A stretch of 41,540 nt of DNA, taken from positions 1-41,540 of the forward strand of contig SIBQ01000021.1 of the NCBI GenBank assembly GCA_009695095.1, given 5' to 3'. Positions 3,467 to 19,261 of this stretch are shown here, in pieces. The position numbers and the translations under genes are program-made. Origin of the DNA: Lacunisphaera sp. GTDB lineage: Bacteria; Verrucomicrobiota; Verrucomicrobiia; Opitutales; Opitutaceae. Under the pieces are notes generated by a model. That model was not told the DNA's origin, did no database searches, and was given only the letters and a program-made list of their open reading frames with translations. Within the stretch, counting starts at the first letter, position 1. Each line of letters starts with the position of its first letter.

Positions 3467-3882
3467 GGGTCGTCGTGGGCGGGCTGCTGCTGGCGCCCTG
3501 ACTTGCAGCGGGTGCCTTGTGGCCGGGGCACGATCGTGGCCGTCGGCGCAGTGACCGCGGTTTCAGTGAAAACGGCCGGCAAGGTGACCGTGGCCACCGT
3601 GGGGACTACCGACCGCGTGGCTGCGGCGGCCATCACGGAACCCATCCGGCAGGACACGCTCCTAAGCACCTCGGGCGGCGATGTGCAGGTGACGGTGCTG
3701 CAATCCGCCGCGTTTCAACTCGACGCCAGCACGTCCGGGGGGAGGTGGATGCCACCGGCCTGACCCTGACCATCGACCGCGGCGGCATGGGTCGCTCGCG
3801 GCTGGCCGGCAGCGTCCACGGCGGTGGTCCCCGGCTGAAACTTCGCTCCAGCGGCGGCGACATCGTCATCCGTACCAACTGA
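3463..3882 (+). pseudogene. Decayed DUF4097-like (putative adhesin) gene
   Basis: A GTG at 3463 begins a signal-peptide-like stretch (MRVVVGGLLLAP) that hits a stop at 3499-3501. A second frame from about 3503 carries LLSTSGGDVQVTVLQSAAF and FQLDASTSGG. A third frame carries EVDATGLTLTIDRGG and GPRLKLRSSGGDIVIRTN, ending at 3882. The repeated SGGD-type beta-strand motifs and the ending match the C-terminus of DUF4097/DUF4098 repeat proteins. The second frame break falls in a run of six G at about 3736-3741 where seven would restore the frame. The central part is too short for a normal family member, so it looks deleted as well as frameshifted. Confidence 0.7.
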
Positions 3883-7340: not shown

Positions 7341-8525
7341 ATGCCCTACACCGAAGACCGCTCCGTTTGGTTTGAGGGCCAGGGGCTTTGGTCGCATGTG
7401 CCGGCGGCTGACTGGCAGGACTGGGTCTGGCAACTCAAGAATCGCCTCACCATGGTCGAGCAGCTCGAGCGCTACATGACGCTCACGCCGGGGGAGAAGG
7501 CCGGCTGCCTCTTCGCCAACCAGAAGCTGGCGCTGGCTATCACGCCATATTTTTTCAATCTCATCGACCGCAACGATCCGGACTGCCCGATCCGCAAGCA
7601 GGTCATCCCGCACCGTGACGAAATGATCATCTCGTCCGGTGAGATGCTCGACTCGCTCGGCGAGGACGAGCATTCGCCCGTGCCCGGCCTCGTTCATCGT
7701 TACCCGGACCGCGTGCTGTTCCTGGTGACCGACCGCTGCGCGGCCTACTGCCGCTATTGCACGCGCAGCCGGCTCGTCAGCAACGCGCAGGACTATAACT
7801 TCCATTCCGAATACGAACAGGCGCTCCGCTACATCGAGGCGCATCCGGAGATCCGCGATGTGCTCCTCTCGGGCGGCGACCCGCTGTTGCTCTCCGACAA
7901 GAAGCTCGACCACTTGGTCGGCCGTCTGCGCGCCATCAAGCACGTCGAGTTCATCCGTCTCGGCTCGCGCATCCCGGTATTCCTGCCGCAGCGCATCACG
8001 CCGGAACTGTGCGAGATATTCAAAAAGCACGGCCCGATCTGGTTGAGCATTCACCTCAATCACCCCAAGGAGGCCACGCAGGAGTTGAAGGAAGCCTGCG
8101 AGCGCCTGTCATTCGCCGGCGTGCCGCTCGGCAACCAGAGCGTGCTGCTCAAGGGCGTGAATGACGATCCGGATGTGATGAAGGCGCTCGTGCACCGTCT
8201 GCTGCGGATGCGCGTGCGGCCCTACTACATCTACCAGATGGACCTCATCACCGGCAGCGCGCACTTCAAGGTCGATGTCCGCAAGGGCATCGAGATCATC
8301 CGGACACTCCGCGGTCACACCACCGGCTACGCCGTGCCGCAGTACGTCATCGATGCCCCCGGTGGCGGCGGCAAGGTGCCGGTGAATCCCGACTACGTCG
8401 AAAAAATAACCGACGACGAGGTCGTGTTCCACAACTTCGAGGGCAAAATCTTCCGCTATCCGCTCAAGAGCTCCCCGTTGCCCGTGCCGGCTGGCACAGT
8501 GATGCCGGCCGAAATACATATGTAA
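7341..8525 (+). CDS. kamA: Lysine 2,3-aminomutase (radical SAM, PLP)
   Basis: This 394-residue protein has the radical-SAM motif CAAYCRYC (Cys133, Cys137, Cys140) and the PLP lysine Lys345 in DAPGGGGKVP. Asp301 and Asp338 fall at a constant +8 offset from the Clostridium subterminale residues Asp293, Asp330 and Lys337 that I recall as substrate and PLP contacts. That supports true lysine 2,3-aminomutase activity, forming beta-lysine, rather than an EpmB-only role. Beta-lysine serves in lysine fermentation or, with the acetyltransferase AblB, as an osmolyte precursor; neither partner is adjacent. The gene is divergent from carA, with about 150 nt between starts. Confidence 0.92.
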   Translation: MPYTEDRSVWFEGQGLWSHVPAADWQDWVWQLKNRLTMVEQLERYMTLTPGEKAGCLFANQKLALAITPYFFNLIDRNDPDCPIRKQVIPHRDEMIISSGEMLDSLGEDEHSPVPGLVHRYPDRVLFLVTDRCAAYCRYCTRSRLVSNAQDYNFHSEYEQALRYIEAHPEIRDVLLSGGDPLLLSDKKLDHLVGRLRAIKHVEFIRLGSRIPVFLPQRITPELCEIFKKHGPIWLSIHLNHPKEATQELKEACERLSFAGVPLGNQSVLLKGVNDDPDVMKALVHRLLRMRVRPYYIYQMDLITGSAHFKVDVRKGIEIIRTLRGHTTGYAVPQYVIDAPGGGGKVPVNPDYVEKITDDEVVFHNFEGKIFRYPLKSSPLPVPAGTVMPAEIHM

Positions 8526-14035: not shown

Positions 14036-15541
14036 TCACGGCCGGTTCGCCGCGCCCTGGCGCCGCAGGAGATACATCGGCGTGATTTCGAAATTCTTCG
14101 CCGTGGTAAGATGCCCCACGTATTCCGGGCTCACGCCACAGTTCGGTTCGAGCCGCAGCAACGCGGCGAACGCCGCGGTCACATAGACCTCGCCGGTGGG
14201 CGTGCGCGGCTCGATCCGGGCGGCGCGGGTGAGGCCCCGGCCCATCACCATGGGCGCGCGCAGCACCGGATCATACACCGGAACCAACGGCGCCGTATGG
14301 CCGCCCAGCCTCAGGCCCATGTCCGCGGGCAGTCCCGCGGCCACCAGGTCAACCGAGCGCAGCCGCTCCTGCAGGTCGAGGGCGCACCACGCACAGTTCA
14401 CGGTGTCGTCCATCACCACGAACAACCCGTCGCCCCACGTGTTGCGCACAATCACATGCTCGGCGTAGCGATCCAGCACCTCCGCCACCGGCTGCATCAC
14501 CGTGGCGAGGAAAAGCTTGATGTGCTCGTCGTGCAGCCGGCTGAAGCCCTTGAAGTCACCGAAGAGCACCGAGCGGATCACCCGGTTCGTTGACGGAGCG
14601 AAGGGCGTCATCGTGTAGGCGCGGGTCGAGTTGACCCGGATGATATCGGTCGTGCCGCCGGCGCGCCGCCATTCCTGGATGTCGTGGGCGGTGCCGCCCA
14701 TTTCCATTCCCTCCTCACCGTCGAACACGGCCAGCTGCCACTTGCGGGCATCGATGCTCGCGGCACGGTTCATGGCCTGGCCCATGGCGATATGGGCGGC
14801 ATAGGCGAACAGCACATTGTCTCCGAAGTAGGCGCAGTCGCTGGCAATCGTGACCGACGCCGCGGCGGCGAAGCAGTGCCGGAACCGCTCGACCCAGTCG
14901 GGGCCGCCCGGCACCACACTGATCGCCACAAATTCCTCGATGGCGAACGGCAGTACAAGGTGCAGCTCGGCCCCGAGCTCGAGCGCAATCTCCGCGATGA
15001 TGATGTCGGCCCCGCACGCGAGTGAGCCGTGCACGAAACCGACCCGTCGCGCCCTCAGGCGCTCGCGCACCTTTCCCGCCACCCCCGCCTGCTGGGTGTG
15101 CGGGAACCGGGAGGGCGATCCGGGGGGCGCCGTCATGTGTCCGCAAAAGTGCACCACATCGGGCTGCGCCAGCACCTCGATGATCGGCTCGGGATCGACG
15201 CCGATGGCGTGGCTGAGGAAGCGGAGCTGGCGGCGGGTGGTGGCGTGGGCCCCGAGATCATCCTGGGCGCCCATGGCGGCCGTCGCCAGTGCCGCGATCA
15301 CCCCCGCCGTGTCGCCGAGCACCAGCAGTGCTTCCGCCCGCGTCACCCAGGCCCAATAGTGGCCGGCGTCAGTGGGGCCGGTGAGGGCGGACGCTTCGCG
15401 CGCGACGACCTCCAGCACATCGCGGGCGAGTTCGTGCGCGTGTTCCGTGCGACCCGCGATTCGCCACATGGTCGCGGCATTGACCCCGGCATACGAACGG
15501 CGGAGGCGCCGATAGACGTCTTCATACGCGGCGGTAGCCAC
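14036..15541 (-). CDS. SLOG-like + class III nucleotidyl cyclase protein (main part of a split gene)
   Basis: This 501-residue frame starts at a GTG. Residues 1-115 continue a helical repeat region resembling the TRAFs-binding/TPR-S domain (YAGVNAATMWRIAGRTEHA). Residues 128-290 look like a SLOG nucleotide-binding domain (VVHFCGHMTAPPGS, GSLACGADIIIAEIALELGA). Residues 322-492 are a class III cyclase: FGDFKGFS with Asp329, NTWGDGLFVV with Asp371, and GRGLTRAARIEP with the transition-state Arg. The usual Asn before that Arg is Thr here, and the usual Lys before the second Asp is not present, so activity and product are uncertain. It is in the same frame as the upstream piece (15557-15922), separated only by one TGA codon and five further codons. 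The intact gene would be a 628-codon multidomain signalling protein. Confidence 0.8.
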   Translation of the reverse strand: MATAAYEDVYRRLRRSYAGVNAATMWRIAGRTEHAHELARDVLEVVAREASALTGPTDAGHYWAWVTRAEALLVLGDTAGVIAALATAAMGAQDDLGAHATTRRQLRFLSHAIGVDPEPIIEVLAQPDVVHFCGHMTAPPGSPSRFPHTQQAGVAGKVRERLRARRVGFVHGSLACGADIIIAEIALELGAELHLVLPFAIEEFVAISVVPGGPDWVERFRHCFAAAASVTIASDCAYFGDNVLFAYAAHIAMGQAMNRAASIDARKWQLAVFDGEEGMEMGGTAHDIQEWRRAGGTTDIIRVNSTRAYTMTPFAPSTNRVIRSVLFGDFKGFSRLHDEHIKLFLATVMQPVAEVLDRYAEHVIVRNTWGDGLFVVMDDTVNCAWCALDLQERLRSVDLVAAGLPADMGLRLGGHTAPLVPVYDPVLRAPMVMGRGLTRAARIEPRTPTGEVYVTAAFAALLRLEPNCGVSPEYVGHLTTAKNFEITPMYLLRRQGAANRP

Positions 15542-15556
15542 GGCGGCCAGGGCCGG

Positions 15557-15922
15557 TCATTCGGGTGGAGCCGCCTGCAGGGCGTGTTCCTTGGCCACCC
15601 GCGCCGAGAGCGCAGCGATGTCCTCGGCAAGCGCAGGCGGCAGCAGATCGGCCGGCAGGGAAGCCGTGAGACCGACCGCCTCGGCTACCGCGCGCCGCGA
15701 ACTGCCGGAACGGGCCAGCGCGAGCACCCGCAGATACCTGATTTCCGCCCGGGCCACGGGGCCTAGGGCGGGTTGGAACTCATGCCCCTCGGCTTCCTCC
15801 GCGGCATCGTGGGCCGTGAGGTATTCACCACGGCGGACTAGGCCGCGGATGGCGCTGATCGCCTCGGGGCCGCTCGACATCGGGGTCAGGGCAAACTTCG
15901 CGGTGGGGGCGGGGGGAGGCAT
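15557..15922 (-). CDS. N-terminal TPR-like piece of the split SLOG-cyclase gene
   Basis: This 121-residue piece (MPPPAPTAKFALTP...) is an alpha-helical repeat region: SAIRGLVRRGEYLTAHDAAE, ARAEIRYLRVLALARSGSS and EDIAALSARVAKEHALQAA. This pattern opens multidomain proteins with TRAFs-binding/TPR-S modules. It stops at a TGA (15557-15559), after which the same frame continues with PALAAVATAAYEDVYRRL into the downstream piece. A CGA to TGA change would explain the break. The start at 15922 is uncertain; an ATG at 15880 is an alternative. The frame is open to 16066, but that extension overlaps another decayed gene. It may be a nonsense mutation, an assembly error, or two polypeptides produced by re-initiation at the GTG. 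Confidence 0.6.
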   Translation of the reverse strand: MPPPAPTAKFALTPMSSGPEAISAIRGLVRRGEYLTAHDAAEEAEGHEFQPALGPVARAEIRYLRVLALARSGSSRRAVAEAVGLTASLPADLLPPALAEDIAALSARVAKEHALQAAPPE

Positions 15923-15936
15923 GCGGCCGGTGTGGT

Positions 15937-16229
15937 TCAATGAAAACTGACGGCCGCCTTCAGCTCCGGCGGGTTGGGGAACAGCCCGCGAACGATGGAT
16001 TCCACCTGAGTGGTTTGCGCGAGGGGAAGCCGTACTGCGTCTCCACGACGGCCGGTGCGTTGTCACTCACGCGATCGGGCAGGACGATGCGGGCGGAGGT
16101 GGCGCCGCCTTTCATGACCTTGATGATGTGGTTGGGCGACAGCCAGGCGAGGAAGCGGCCGCGTTGGTGGATGGTGGGCAGCGTGGCACGGACAGTGTAA
16201 AGATTGAAGGCATAGTAAGAGTGACCCGC
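15937..16229 (-). pseudogene. C-terminal remnant of an unrecognised gene
   Basis: On the minus strand a coding-like stretch without a start runs from 16229: HSYYAFNLYTVRATLPTIHQ, LAWLSPNHIIKVMKGGATSA, LPDRVSDNAPAVVETQYGFP. After a frame change it continues as LAQTTQVESIVRGLFPNPPE and ends at 15937. The frame is restored if the CCCC run near 16028-16034 is one base short. The 5' end is cut by a stop at the edge of a dispersed repeat (16229-16280). The stop lies 14 nt before the split SLOG-cyclase gene, so this was probably its upstream neighbour. I do not recognise the family. Confidence 0.45.
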
Positions 16230-16337: not shown

Positions 16338-17747
16338 TCAGCCCCTCGGCGCCGGGACGGGCATGGCGCCGGGCACCGTGCCGGCCTTGATGAGGATCAT
16401 CTTGGCGGGGTCGAGGTGCTTCTCGATCGCGCCGTTCACTTGGGCGAGGGTAAGGGAGTTGATCCGGGGGCCGAACTCATCGATGAAGCTCAGCGGCAGG
16501 TCGCGGTTCATGGTGTTGAGGATGGCGTCCGCCATGCCGCCGGTGGTGGCGAGGCCCAGCTTGTAGCTGCCGACATATTTGCCCTTGTTGCTGGCCAGCT
16601 CGGCCTCAGTGATGCCGTTCTTATGCCACGCGGCGAGCTGGCGCCTGGTGGAGGAGAGGCCCTTTTCGAGCAGCTCGGGGGCAAACTGCGCGCCGATGCG
16701 CCAGTCGCCGTCGGCGTAGGTGTCGTTGGTCACGGCGGAGTAGATGCCATAGGTCAGGCCCTCCTTGTCGCGGACGTTGGCCATGAGCCGGCCGGTGAAG
16801 CCGCTGCCGAGCGCGGTGGTGCCGATACGCAACGCGAGCCCGTCGGGGTCGCCGTAACGGAGCTGCGTGGCCTGGCCCCAGAGAACGGAGACGCTGGCCT
16901 TGCCGGCCATGAACACGTTCTGGTCGCGGGCGGCGTCGACGGTGCCCGCCTTGGCGGCCTTGGGCGCGGGCGAGCCGCCGGTCCAGCCGGCAAAGGCCTT
17001 GCCGACCTCGCCACGGGCGGCGTCGGGATCGACATCGCCAACGATGACCAGCTTCATGGCGGCGGGCCCGTAGTATTGCTGATAAAAAGCCTTCACCTCG
17101 TCGAGCGTGGCCTTGTCGACATCCGCCAGGAACTGCGCGGTGGCCGGCCGACGGTTGGTGTGGCCGAGGGGAAAGACGGCGTTGTTGAAGGCGATGTCGG
17201 AGCGGGAATCGACATCCTCCATCGCGCGGCGGATGTTGCCGACCAGCTGTTTCTTTAGCTTGGCGAACTCCTCCGGAGAGAACGCCGGCGTGCGGAGCTG
17301 CTCGGCAATGAGGCCGAGCACGAGCGGTAGGTCCGCTCGCAGGCACTTGGCGCTGATATTCAGCGCAGCGGAATTTGTCCCGAAGCTGACGTTGGCGCCA
17401 ACATCGCCCAGCTGCTTGGAGATGGCGAACTTGTCATTCTTGGTTGTGCCCTTGTCGAGCATGCCGGCGGCGAGGTCGGCGAGGGCGCTGTTGGTGTCGG
17501 GGCTGCGGGAATCGCCGGCGGGCAGGTCGCCCCGGATGGTGACGACGTCCCGCACGCCGGTCTTCAGCGCGACGACATCGATGCCGGCGACTTTCTGGCG
17601 CGAGGCGTTTTCAGCGATGCCGGCGTGGAGCGGGGTGATGACGAGCAAGGAGCACCCTGCTACGCTCAGCAAGGCTGAGCTTCGCAGGGCTCGTCCTGCG
17701 GCGGAGCCGCAGGCGAGTAGGACAGAAAGTTGGGACAAGGATTTCAT
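16338..17747 (-). CDS. M16 family peptidase-like subunit without the zinc motif
   Basis: This 469-residue, probably periplasmic protein has the M16 fold (FSPEEFAKLKKQLVGNIRRA, YYGPAAMKLVIVGDVDP, GSGFTGRLMANVRDKEGLTY). It lacks the inverted zinc motif HxxEH. It is the non-catalytic partner in the common bacterial arrangement where one subunit carries the active site and the other helps bind substrate. The N-terminus (MKSLSQLSVLLACGSAAGRA...) is a signal peptide broken up by residues encoded by a dispersed repeat at 17655-17722. It begins 20 nt after the catalytic M16 gene and ends at a clear terminator. Confidence 0.9.
   Translation of the reverse strand: MKSLSQLSVLLACGSAAGRALRSSALLSVAGCSLLVITPLHAGIAENASRQKVAGIDVVALKTGVRDVVTIRGDLPAGDSRSPDTNSALADLAAGMLDKGTTKNDKFAISKQLGDVGANVSFGTNSAALNISAKCLRADLPLVLGLIAEQLRTPAFSPEEFAKLKKQLVGNIRRAMEDVDSRSDIAFNNAVFPLGHTNRRPATAQFLADVDKATLDEVKAFYQQYYGPAAMKLVIVGDVDPDAARGEVGKAFAGWTGGSPAPKAAKAGTVDAARDQNVFMAGKASVSVLWGQATQLRYGDPDGLALRIGTTALGSGFTGRLMANVRDKEGLTYGIYSAVTNDTYADGDWRIGAQFAPELLEKGLSSTRRQLAAWHKNGITEAELASNKGKYVGSYKLGLATTGGMADAILNTMNRDLPLSFIDEFGPRINSLTLAQVNGAIEKHLDPAKMILIKAGTVPGAMPVPAPRG
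17655..17722. repeat. CTACGCT hairpin repeat inside the M16 signal-peptide region
   Basis: CCTGCTACGCTCAGC (17656-17670), GAGCTTCGCAGG and the hairpin CCTGCGGC-GGA-GCCGCAGG followed by CGAGTAGG match the element at 16229-16280 and 29924-29977. It lies within the coding sequence and encodes about 22 residues (including GSAAGRALRSSALLSVAG) inside the signal peptide, without breaking the frame. Confidence 0.65.
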
Positions 17748-17767: not shown

Positions 17768-19132
17768 TTATTTGGCGGCGGGGGCGACGACCGGCTCGAA
17801 CCAGCCGGTGGTGCTCTTGTTGGGGTCGAGGTAGAGGCCGGCCACGCGTTTCACGTCGGTCGCGGTGACCTTCCGGAAGGCGTCGGGAAGCGTGACGTAG
17901 AGCGTCCAGTCGCCGGCGGCGATGTCCTCGTTGAGCGTGCTGGCAATGGCGAACGAGCCGTCGCGCGCGTAGGCGACGCTGGCGGTGATCTTGCCGATGG
18001 CGGTGGCGACCTCGGCGTCGGTCACGCCGACGGTGCGGACGCGGGCAGCCTCCTCGTTGACGATTTTCTCGACCTGCTCGTGCGTGATGCCGGGGGCGAG
18101 GTAGGCGTAGACTTGGAAGAGCGCGGGGTCGTGGAAGAAACCGGCGTCGGTCGTGACCTGGGTGGTGAGGTTCTTGTCGGTGAGCGCGCGGTAGAACCGA
18201 CTGGTCTTGCCGCTTCCAAGGATGTTTGCGAGGACCCGGAGGGCGGGGTAATCGGCATGGGAGCCGGCGCAGCTCTTGTAGCTGACGCCGACGACGCCGA
18301 GTTCGCCGGCGCGCTGGACGAGCACGCAGCGCGGGCCGGTCTGCTCCGGTTCCTCGGTGTAGACGGTCGGGATCGGCTGCGGGGCCTTGGGGTAGCCGCC
18401 GTAGTATTTCTTCACGAGGCCGAGCGCGGCGGCGGGATCGAAGTCGCCGATAACGGAGACGGTGGCGTTGTCCGGCCAGTAGAAGGTGTCGTAGAACGCG
18501 CGGAGCTTCTCGATCGGCACCTGCTCGATGTCGGAGCGCCAGCCGATGGTCGAGTGGTGGTAGGGGTGGGCCTGGAAGGCGGCCGCGAAGATCTCCTTGT
18601 CGAGCGCCTGCTGCGGGTCGTTCTCCCCCTGCTCGAATTCATTGCGCACGACGGTCATCTCCGGCCGGCGGTCGTCCTCGCGAATCCAGAGGTTGTGCAT
18701 GCGGTCGGCCTCGATGGCCAGGTAGCCCTCGAGGTGCTCGCTGCCCACCTCGGCGTAATAGTTGGTGCGGTCGAGCCAGGTGGTGGCGTTGTAGTTGCCA
18801 CCGATGCCCTCGAGGAACTGCTTCACGCTGTTGCCCTTCGCGTCGTTGAAGTTTGGGCCGCCCTTGAACATGAGGTGCTCGAGCAGGTGGGTGGCGCCGG
18901 TGCTGCCGGTGACCTCGTTGCGCGAGCCGACGCGATAGGTGACCATGAAGGTCACGACCGGCGCGGTGCGGTCAGACTTGAGGAGGACGCTGAGGCCGTT
19001 GGACTCGAGGCGGTATTCGTCGAAACCGCCGAGGGACTTGACGTGGCTGAAGCCCGGGACGCTAGCCGGGGCCGCTGCGAGGGCTGCGACCGAGACAAAG
19101 CATGCAAGCAACGCGAAGGAACGTTTCATCAT
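17768..19132 (-). CDS. M16 family zinc metallopeptidase (catalytic subunit)
   Basis: The protein of about 454 residues starts with a signal peptide (MMKRSFALLACFVSVAALAA), so it is exported. It carries the inverted zincin motif HLLEH in GATHLLEHLMFKGG, and a further Glu in VVRNEFEQGEND that completes zinc binding. The M16 C-terminal half contains DNATVSVIGDFDP and SGKTSRFYRALTDK. M16 peptidases degrade peptides inside a closed chamber. The frame is open to 19180, but the start at 19132 is preferred because it gives a clean signal peptide. With the downstream partner it forms a two-gene operon. Confidence 0.93.
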   Translation of the reverse strand: MMKRSFALLACFVSVAALAAAPASVPGFSHVKSLGGFDEYRLESNGLSVLLKSDRTAPVVTFMVTYRVGSRNEVTGSTGATHLLEHLMFKGGPNFNDAKGNSVKQFLEGIGGNYNATTWLDRTNYYAEVGSEHLEGYLAIEADRMHNLWIREDDRRPEMTVVRNEFEQGENDPQQALDKEIFAAAFQAHPYHHSTIGWRSDIEQVPIEKLRAFYDTFYWPDNATVSVIGDFDPAAALGLVKKYYGGYPKAPQPIPTVYTEEPEQTGPRCVLVQRAGELGVVGVSYKSCAGSHADYPALRVLANILGSGKTSRFYRALTDKNLTTQVTTDAGFFHDPALFQVYAYLAPGITHEQVEKIVNEEAARVRTVGVTDAEVATAIGKITASVAYARDGSFAIASTLNEDIAAGDWTLYVTLPDAFRKVTATDVKRVAGLYLDPNKSTTGWFEPVVAPAAK

Positions 19133-19261
19133 AGGGGATGGGAAACTGAAAGCTAGCATACCGCCCCGCCCCTGTAACAAGACAAAATCTGCCCGGGCGT
19201 CACGGAATAAAGTTATTCACACCCGGCCGCGCCCACCACCCTGTGCCGAGCGCCCGGCCCA

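Follow-up and report, generated by a model that had tools for sequence, protein, structure and literature searches.

A probable recently inactivated TPR-S-SLOG-cyclase gene in Lacunisphaera sp., and the TIR-SLOG neighbourhood of its relatives

The minus-strand frame at 15922-14036 of the window (the window being the whole stretch of 41,540 nucleotides analysed) is probably a recently inactivated signalling gene, left behind after the loss of its signalling island. The gene combines sensor repeats (TPR-S), a putative nucleotide-binding SLOG domain and a cyclase-like domain. As judged by sequence comparison, the window copy bears the marks of a pseudogene: its frame is broken where homologues are continuous, and the conserved upstream region is missing. 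The features referred to below are the following.

15557..15922, minus strand: N-terminal piece, 121 residues ended by TGA; covers the beginning of the TPR/TPR-S region and is homologous to the six congener proteins at their N-termini
15557..15559, minus strand: in-frame TGA, a sense codon in relatives (Arg in six of six congeners)
14036..15556, minus strand: C-terminal piece, 506 codons plus stop, containing the GTG at 15541 at which re-initiation had been suggested
15467..15754, minus strand: TPR-S (PF20308) match across the stop, 33 bits, above cut-off, with one TGA inside
14630..15166, minus strand: SLOG (YpsA-like) domain, limits approximate, carried over from an intact relative's model
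14048..14587, minus strand: class III nucleotidyl cyclase-like domain, limits approximate, carried over from the model
15930..16013, minus strand: filler of about 84-85 nt that separates the truncated gene from the start of the broken one and occupies the leader position of relatives
16014..16202, minus strand: remnant of a DUF4286-like gene, matching residues 5-67 of a 107-residue protein of congener G013
16338-17747 and 17768-19180, minus strand: two open M16 peptidase genes, which adjoin the full-length DUF4286-like gene in six congeners
L081:7061-7618 (contig 38 of the source genome): best TIR-TPR match of the source genome, truncated, with an in-frame stop

The interrupted frame and its homologues

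The frame holds one internal stop, the TGA at 15559-15557; it reopens at 15556 and runs to the TGA at 14038-14036, which is 501 codons if counted from the GTG at 15541. The first-pass annotation had described two pieces in the same frame, one TGA and five codons apart before the GTG, and a joined protein of 628 codons; both counts are borne out, and the total agrees when the stop position is included. The relatives favour the ATG at 15922 as the start, the mechanical list of open reading frames beginning upstream at 16066. A codon-use scan, which was devised after a hexamer-based scan had overlooked the site and whose thresholds were not blind, finds coding-type codon use in the same frame on both sides of the TGA. 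It finds this at no other in-frame stop of the window, and the interruption therefore exceeds chance expectation.

The C-terminal piece was used as a query against 57 whole genomes (labelled G, with G000 the source genome of the window; L labels denote loci), giving matches in 14, the source genome included. Six congeners that have both the gene and its leader (G004, G010, G011, G013, G015 and G019) match over nearly the full piece at 75-82% identity, with a single open frame each. A seventh congener, G012, matches over the last 97 residues only, at a contig end, and says nothing on the stop. More distant homologues, at 29-33% identity, are present in G036, G037, G038 and G047, which belong to the same family or order, and the matches in G007 and G035 and at second places in G011 and G012 are confined to the cyclase part. 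A search of contigs returned four loci, three of them apparently from congeners (G010, G019 and G015) and one (L022, 47%) from an alphaproteobacterial draft genome; intact loci of relatives lie on LNEH01000155, JACPPI010000005 and JAEUGW010000050. It is worth adding that the L022 homologue (VGES01000065.1) is nearer to the window protein than those of the same-family and same-order genomes, which suggests either horizontal transfer or a misbinned contig. No second copy of the gene was found in the source assembly.

When 11 homologues are aligned with the window protein, all 11 are continuous across the stop position; eight have Arg there (the six congeners together with L012 and L022), and the residue of the remaining three is Gln, Lys or Glu. 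The check proposed with the original annotation, whether homologues too are split at this point, thus comes out at none of 11, and its reading of one gene broken by one stop is supported. The protein is otherwise well preserved: dN/dS on the window branch is 0.11-0.14 (L003 or L004 with a distant outgroup) or 0.26 (the closer pair L003/L004), and all 46 columns that are invariant among the 11 homologues are unaltered in the window protein. The gene was therefore constrained until very recently, and since general decay is absent from the protein, the stop is either very recent or an error; such constraint fits a young nonsense mutation and a base error equally. An excess of GC-to-AT transitions was considered as proof of decay and rejected, being non-specific relative to neighbour genes. 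These transitions make up 38 of 54 window-private changes against 80 of 247 in six relatives pooled. With three references the figures are 49 of 92 against 94 of 343 when three neighbour genes are taken together (P 5e-6), and against 36 of 82 when only the gene at 7341-8525 is compared (P 0.23); two references give 66 of 190 against 318 of 1132 (P 0.07).

The SLOG and cyclase domains that had been guessed for the protein are supported, and both lie wholly 3' of the stop. The stop itself falls within TPR-S: with X at that position the window protein scores 28.0 bits against a curated cut-off of 27.6, the N-terminal piece alone scores 13.7 and the C-terminal piece is unmatched, so that the cut-off is reached only when the frame is read across the stop. 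Three congeners score 32.7-37.1 bits. In the structural model of an intact relative, the SLOG domain shows a Rossmann-like fold of the YpsA type and the cyclase-like domain the class III nucleotidyl cyclase fold; the SLOG domain may bind or process nucleotides. Among solved structures searched by sequence, cyclase chains are best at E 9e-5 and the remainder are mostly repeat proteins. Guanylate_cyc (PF00211) gives 12.4-13.0 bits for the window protein against a cut-off of 21.9, and throughout the genus the domain either scores under that Pfam cut-off or goes unmatched. The class III catalytic motif contains an Asn/Arg pair; the genus has Thr at the Asn position (GLTRAAR) and retains the Arg, and distant homologues have Asn or Ser. 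Because of the weak or absent Pfam match and this Thr, cyclase activity in the genus is uncertain, and the domain may sense without catalysing. An NCBIfam search at E 1 gave no match to either piece, and PADLOC models at E 0.001 gave none to two intact TPR-S-SLOG-cyclase homologues, the TIR proteins matching models that carry TIR.

The upstream region and the TIR partner

All six congeners share a conserved stretch of about 100 nt that leads up to the ATG, with the core CTTAGNCCTTGCCAGNYCAAAC lying 36-38 nt ahead of that codon. We infer that this leader acts as a promoter; a search of the leaders of five loci against Rfam at gathering scores gave no match. The core motif occurs once per genome in nine of 21 genomes of the genus and nowhere in the source genome, and the conserved leader was not found upstream of the window gene. 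Its place is taken by the filler, beyond which stands the truncated DUF4286-like gene (a family assignment that stays under the Pfam cut-off even at full length, 24.4 against 25.8). A genus search with this upstream gene gave 17 rows outside the source genome, none extending beyond 16015 and nine stopping exactly there. The roughly 85 nt have no convincing match in the loci compared, and none of the other 20 genomes of the genus gives a row that passes 16015.

In G013, G015 and G019 the DUF4286-like gene and the TPR-S gene share a contig and a strand, the former ending 15.1, 14.4 and 25.8 kb short of the latter, and the interval holds TIR_2-TPR, SIR2_2-TIR_2 and nSTAND1 proteins (five identified by Pfam, the others by eye). 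In G007, G017 and G020 the DUF4286-like match adjoins a SLOG/SLATT gene instead. The ancestral order was probably DUF4286-like gene, island, TPR-S gene. All six congeners have a TIR domain in the gene that diverges from the leader: TIR_2 by Pfam in G004, G010, G015 and G019, a protein match in G013, and in G011 a SIR2-TIR type, from similarity to the G015 protein and a TIR match. A separate SIR2_2-TIR_2 protein also lies inside the G015 island, and in G013 large TIR-TPR genes form a tandem array (L023:3229-18088).

At E 0.001 no TIR match was obtained in the window or in 12 stretches sampled from the source genome. The whole source assembly has two TIR-TPR matches, the better of which is the fragment on contig 38; as the assembly is 91.5% complete, in 41 contigs, absences are not absolute. 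Such matches, which are pieces and not genes and some of whose counts are lower bounds, number 7-37 in the seven congeners with a TPR-S-SLOG-cyclase match, 4-18 where a SLOG/SLATT match is present (seven genomes) and 0-5 where neither is (six genomes). Genomes with either output gene differ from those with neither by a Mann-Whitney P of 0.001, a comparison that ignores relatedness and the lower completeness of some genomes. The highest count in the genus, up to 37 matches, is that of G012. The first reading had overlooked the loss of the leader, the truncation of the upstream gene and the absence of the TIR partner.

Other genes of the source genome also appear decayed. The codon-use scan of the 12 own-genome stretches (214 kb) gave ten same-frame candidates. 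Nine were dropped, eight as likely gene junctions by eye and one as a pair of two unrelated Pfam families. The one retained is an in-frame TAG in an alpha/beta hydrolase-type gene (L037:3679-3681, contig 14 of the source genome) that is open in all five congeners having it. The hexamer-based scan added a candidate at L039:2939-2941. The relatives gave no same-frame candidate in 140 kb, a weak comparison because a smaller genome may hold more tight gene junctions. Within the window, the 3' end of a 442-codon frame that is open in G019 (L025:6942-8270) survives as a remnant at about 3626-3879, with a change of frame, and the assembly measures 2.14 Mb, 18 of 20 congeners having 2.8-5.2 Mb. The several apparently decayed genes point to gene loss in the source lineage, and make an erroneous stop less likely.

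The origin of the stop

The original annotation had left three options, a nonsense mutation, a sequence error or re-initiation. Independent lesions around the stop tip the balance towards the nonsense mutation. The TIR island of 14-26 kb, which in three relatives separates the DUF4286-like gene from the TPR-S gene, would have been lost by deletion, together with the promoter of the TPR-S-SLOG-cyclase gene. The gene, no longer useful or expressed, would then have acquired the nonsense mutation. The TGA could instead be a wrong base, or a variant of a minority strain that became fixed in a draft assembly of the completeness and fragmentation given above. The good conservation of the rest of the protein and the second lone in-frame stop in the own-genome sample speak for this, but an error would leave the missing leader, the truncated DUF4286-like gene and the loss or breakage of TIR genes unexplained, and the window holds no further same-frame candidate; we regard it as a possible but unlikely alternative.

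That the gene is a true two-part system, an N-terminal sensor and a SLOG-cyclase protein re-initiated at the GTG, is considerably less likely still. The GTG lies 15 nt beyond the stop and both SLOG and cyclase-like domains are encoded entirely past it, but the stop falls inside the TPR-S domain and not in a linker, none of the homologues is split there, and the leader is lost. Moreover the GTG is not conserved, the aligned codon being GTG in two of the six congeners and GCC, ACC, GCG and GCG in the other four, and no purine-rich ribosome site is seen by eye ahead of it, so that this part of the earlier proposal is not upheld. A lone in-frame TGA flanked by coding sequence is also what recoding or readthrough would give (selenocysteine, a suppressor tRNA or another genetic code). 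TGA is, however, the commonest terminator, ending 78 of 152 open reading frames of at least 200 residues in the own-genome sample, and the relatives carry Arg, Gln, Lys or Glu at the position. The tRNA-Sec model has 12 matches in the assembly, none above cut-off, the controls all matching (14 of 14) with five above it. Recoding was rejected on terminator usage and the tRNA-Sec scores, and strikes us as barely credible.

The island in relatives and comparison with known systems

As a gene interrupted by a stop, the window copy is ordinary, and its worth lies in the island to which it points. It resembles a natural knock-out, in which loss of TIR genes is linked to decay of the SLOG neighbour, and this supports the view that the two are functionally coupled; relatives offer intact loci that are candidates for a nucleotide-signalling system in Verrucomicrobiota. 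In these relatives the TIR protein would produce an NAD-derived nucleotide signal, the SLOG domain would read it, the TPR part would sense or dock a partner, and the cyclase-like domain would relay the signal.

The leader core precedes the TPR-S-SLOG-cyclase gene in six genomes and a SLOG/SLATT-like gene in three (L084 in G003, L088 in G007 and L083 in G017). In the two SLOG/SLATT-like proteins scanned the SLATT matches are near the cut-off, and the start resembles SLOG by eye; the G007 gene is itself in two parts, at C98:648-1562 and 1553-2086. The divergent gene carries TIR at eight of the nine leader loci, that of G007 resembling an ATPase. The two outputs never occur together in 21 genomes, with a hypergeometric P of about 0.015-0.022 that ignores relatedness; the match in G009 covers the C-terminal part only. 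We put forward tentatively, as a plausible idea that falls short of being probable, that this genus of Opitutaceae has an undescribed modular TIR-SLOG system. One leader per genome would lie between a TIR gene that diverges from it and a SLOG output gene that can be exchanged, the output being TPR-S-SLOG-cyclase or SLOG joined to a SLATT-like membrane part, and the SLOG gene would decay once the TIR side is lost. A literature search found no paper title on such an island.

Outside the genus the homologue neighbours a TIR_2/ThsB_TIR-FGE protein in G037, a DUF4062-NACHT-TPR protein in G047, and a subtilase and an ABC protein with a cNMP-binding domain in G036. This set fits a scheme in which TIR would provide a nucleotide signal to SLOG, to be relayed by the cyclase product. 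The ABC protein (L079:10496-13615) is encoded by the next gene, which overlaps the homologue, and is possibly a reader of that product. By eye, the neighbours of the G038 and L022 homologues include nothing suggestive.

SLOG systems were reportedly introduced in a 2015 paper. The nearest YpsA-clade comparison, Bacillus subtilis YpsA (2nx2), has 14% identity, and is a single domain of 178 residues. Relative to the class III cyclases, the genus domain differs in the Thr and the low Pfam score described above. The nearest counterparts of the TPR-S region are the TPR-S and MAP3K TRAFs-binding (PF13281) proteins and, by fold, the central regulatory region of ASK1, a fold match tied by other TPR proteins (LGN at 14.6 and kinesin-light-chain TPR at 14.3). 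Unlike ASK1, the window gene has no kinase, and SLOG and cyclase-like domains are fused instead; the window copy with X is missed by PF13281 (17.0 against a cut-off of 24.1), the break lying within TPR-S.

The closest system in organization is Thoeris, in which TIR-made cADPR variants are read by the SLOG domain of ThsA (PMC9503650). A TIR gene adjoins the SLOG gene in all six congeners, and is lacking in the window; the G037 neighbour also matches ThsB_TIR. In contrast to ThsA, Pfam scans found no sirtuin domain in the window protein or the scanned homologues, the congener SLOG protein having TPR and cyclase-like domains in its place, and the TIR proteins of the island are mostly fused to TPR and arranged in arrays.
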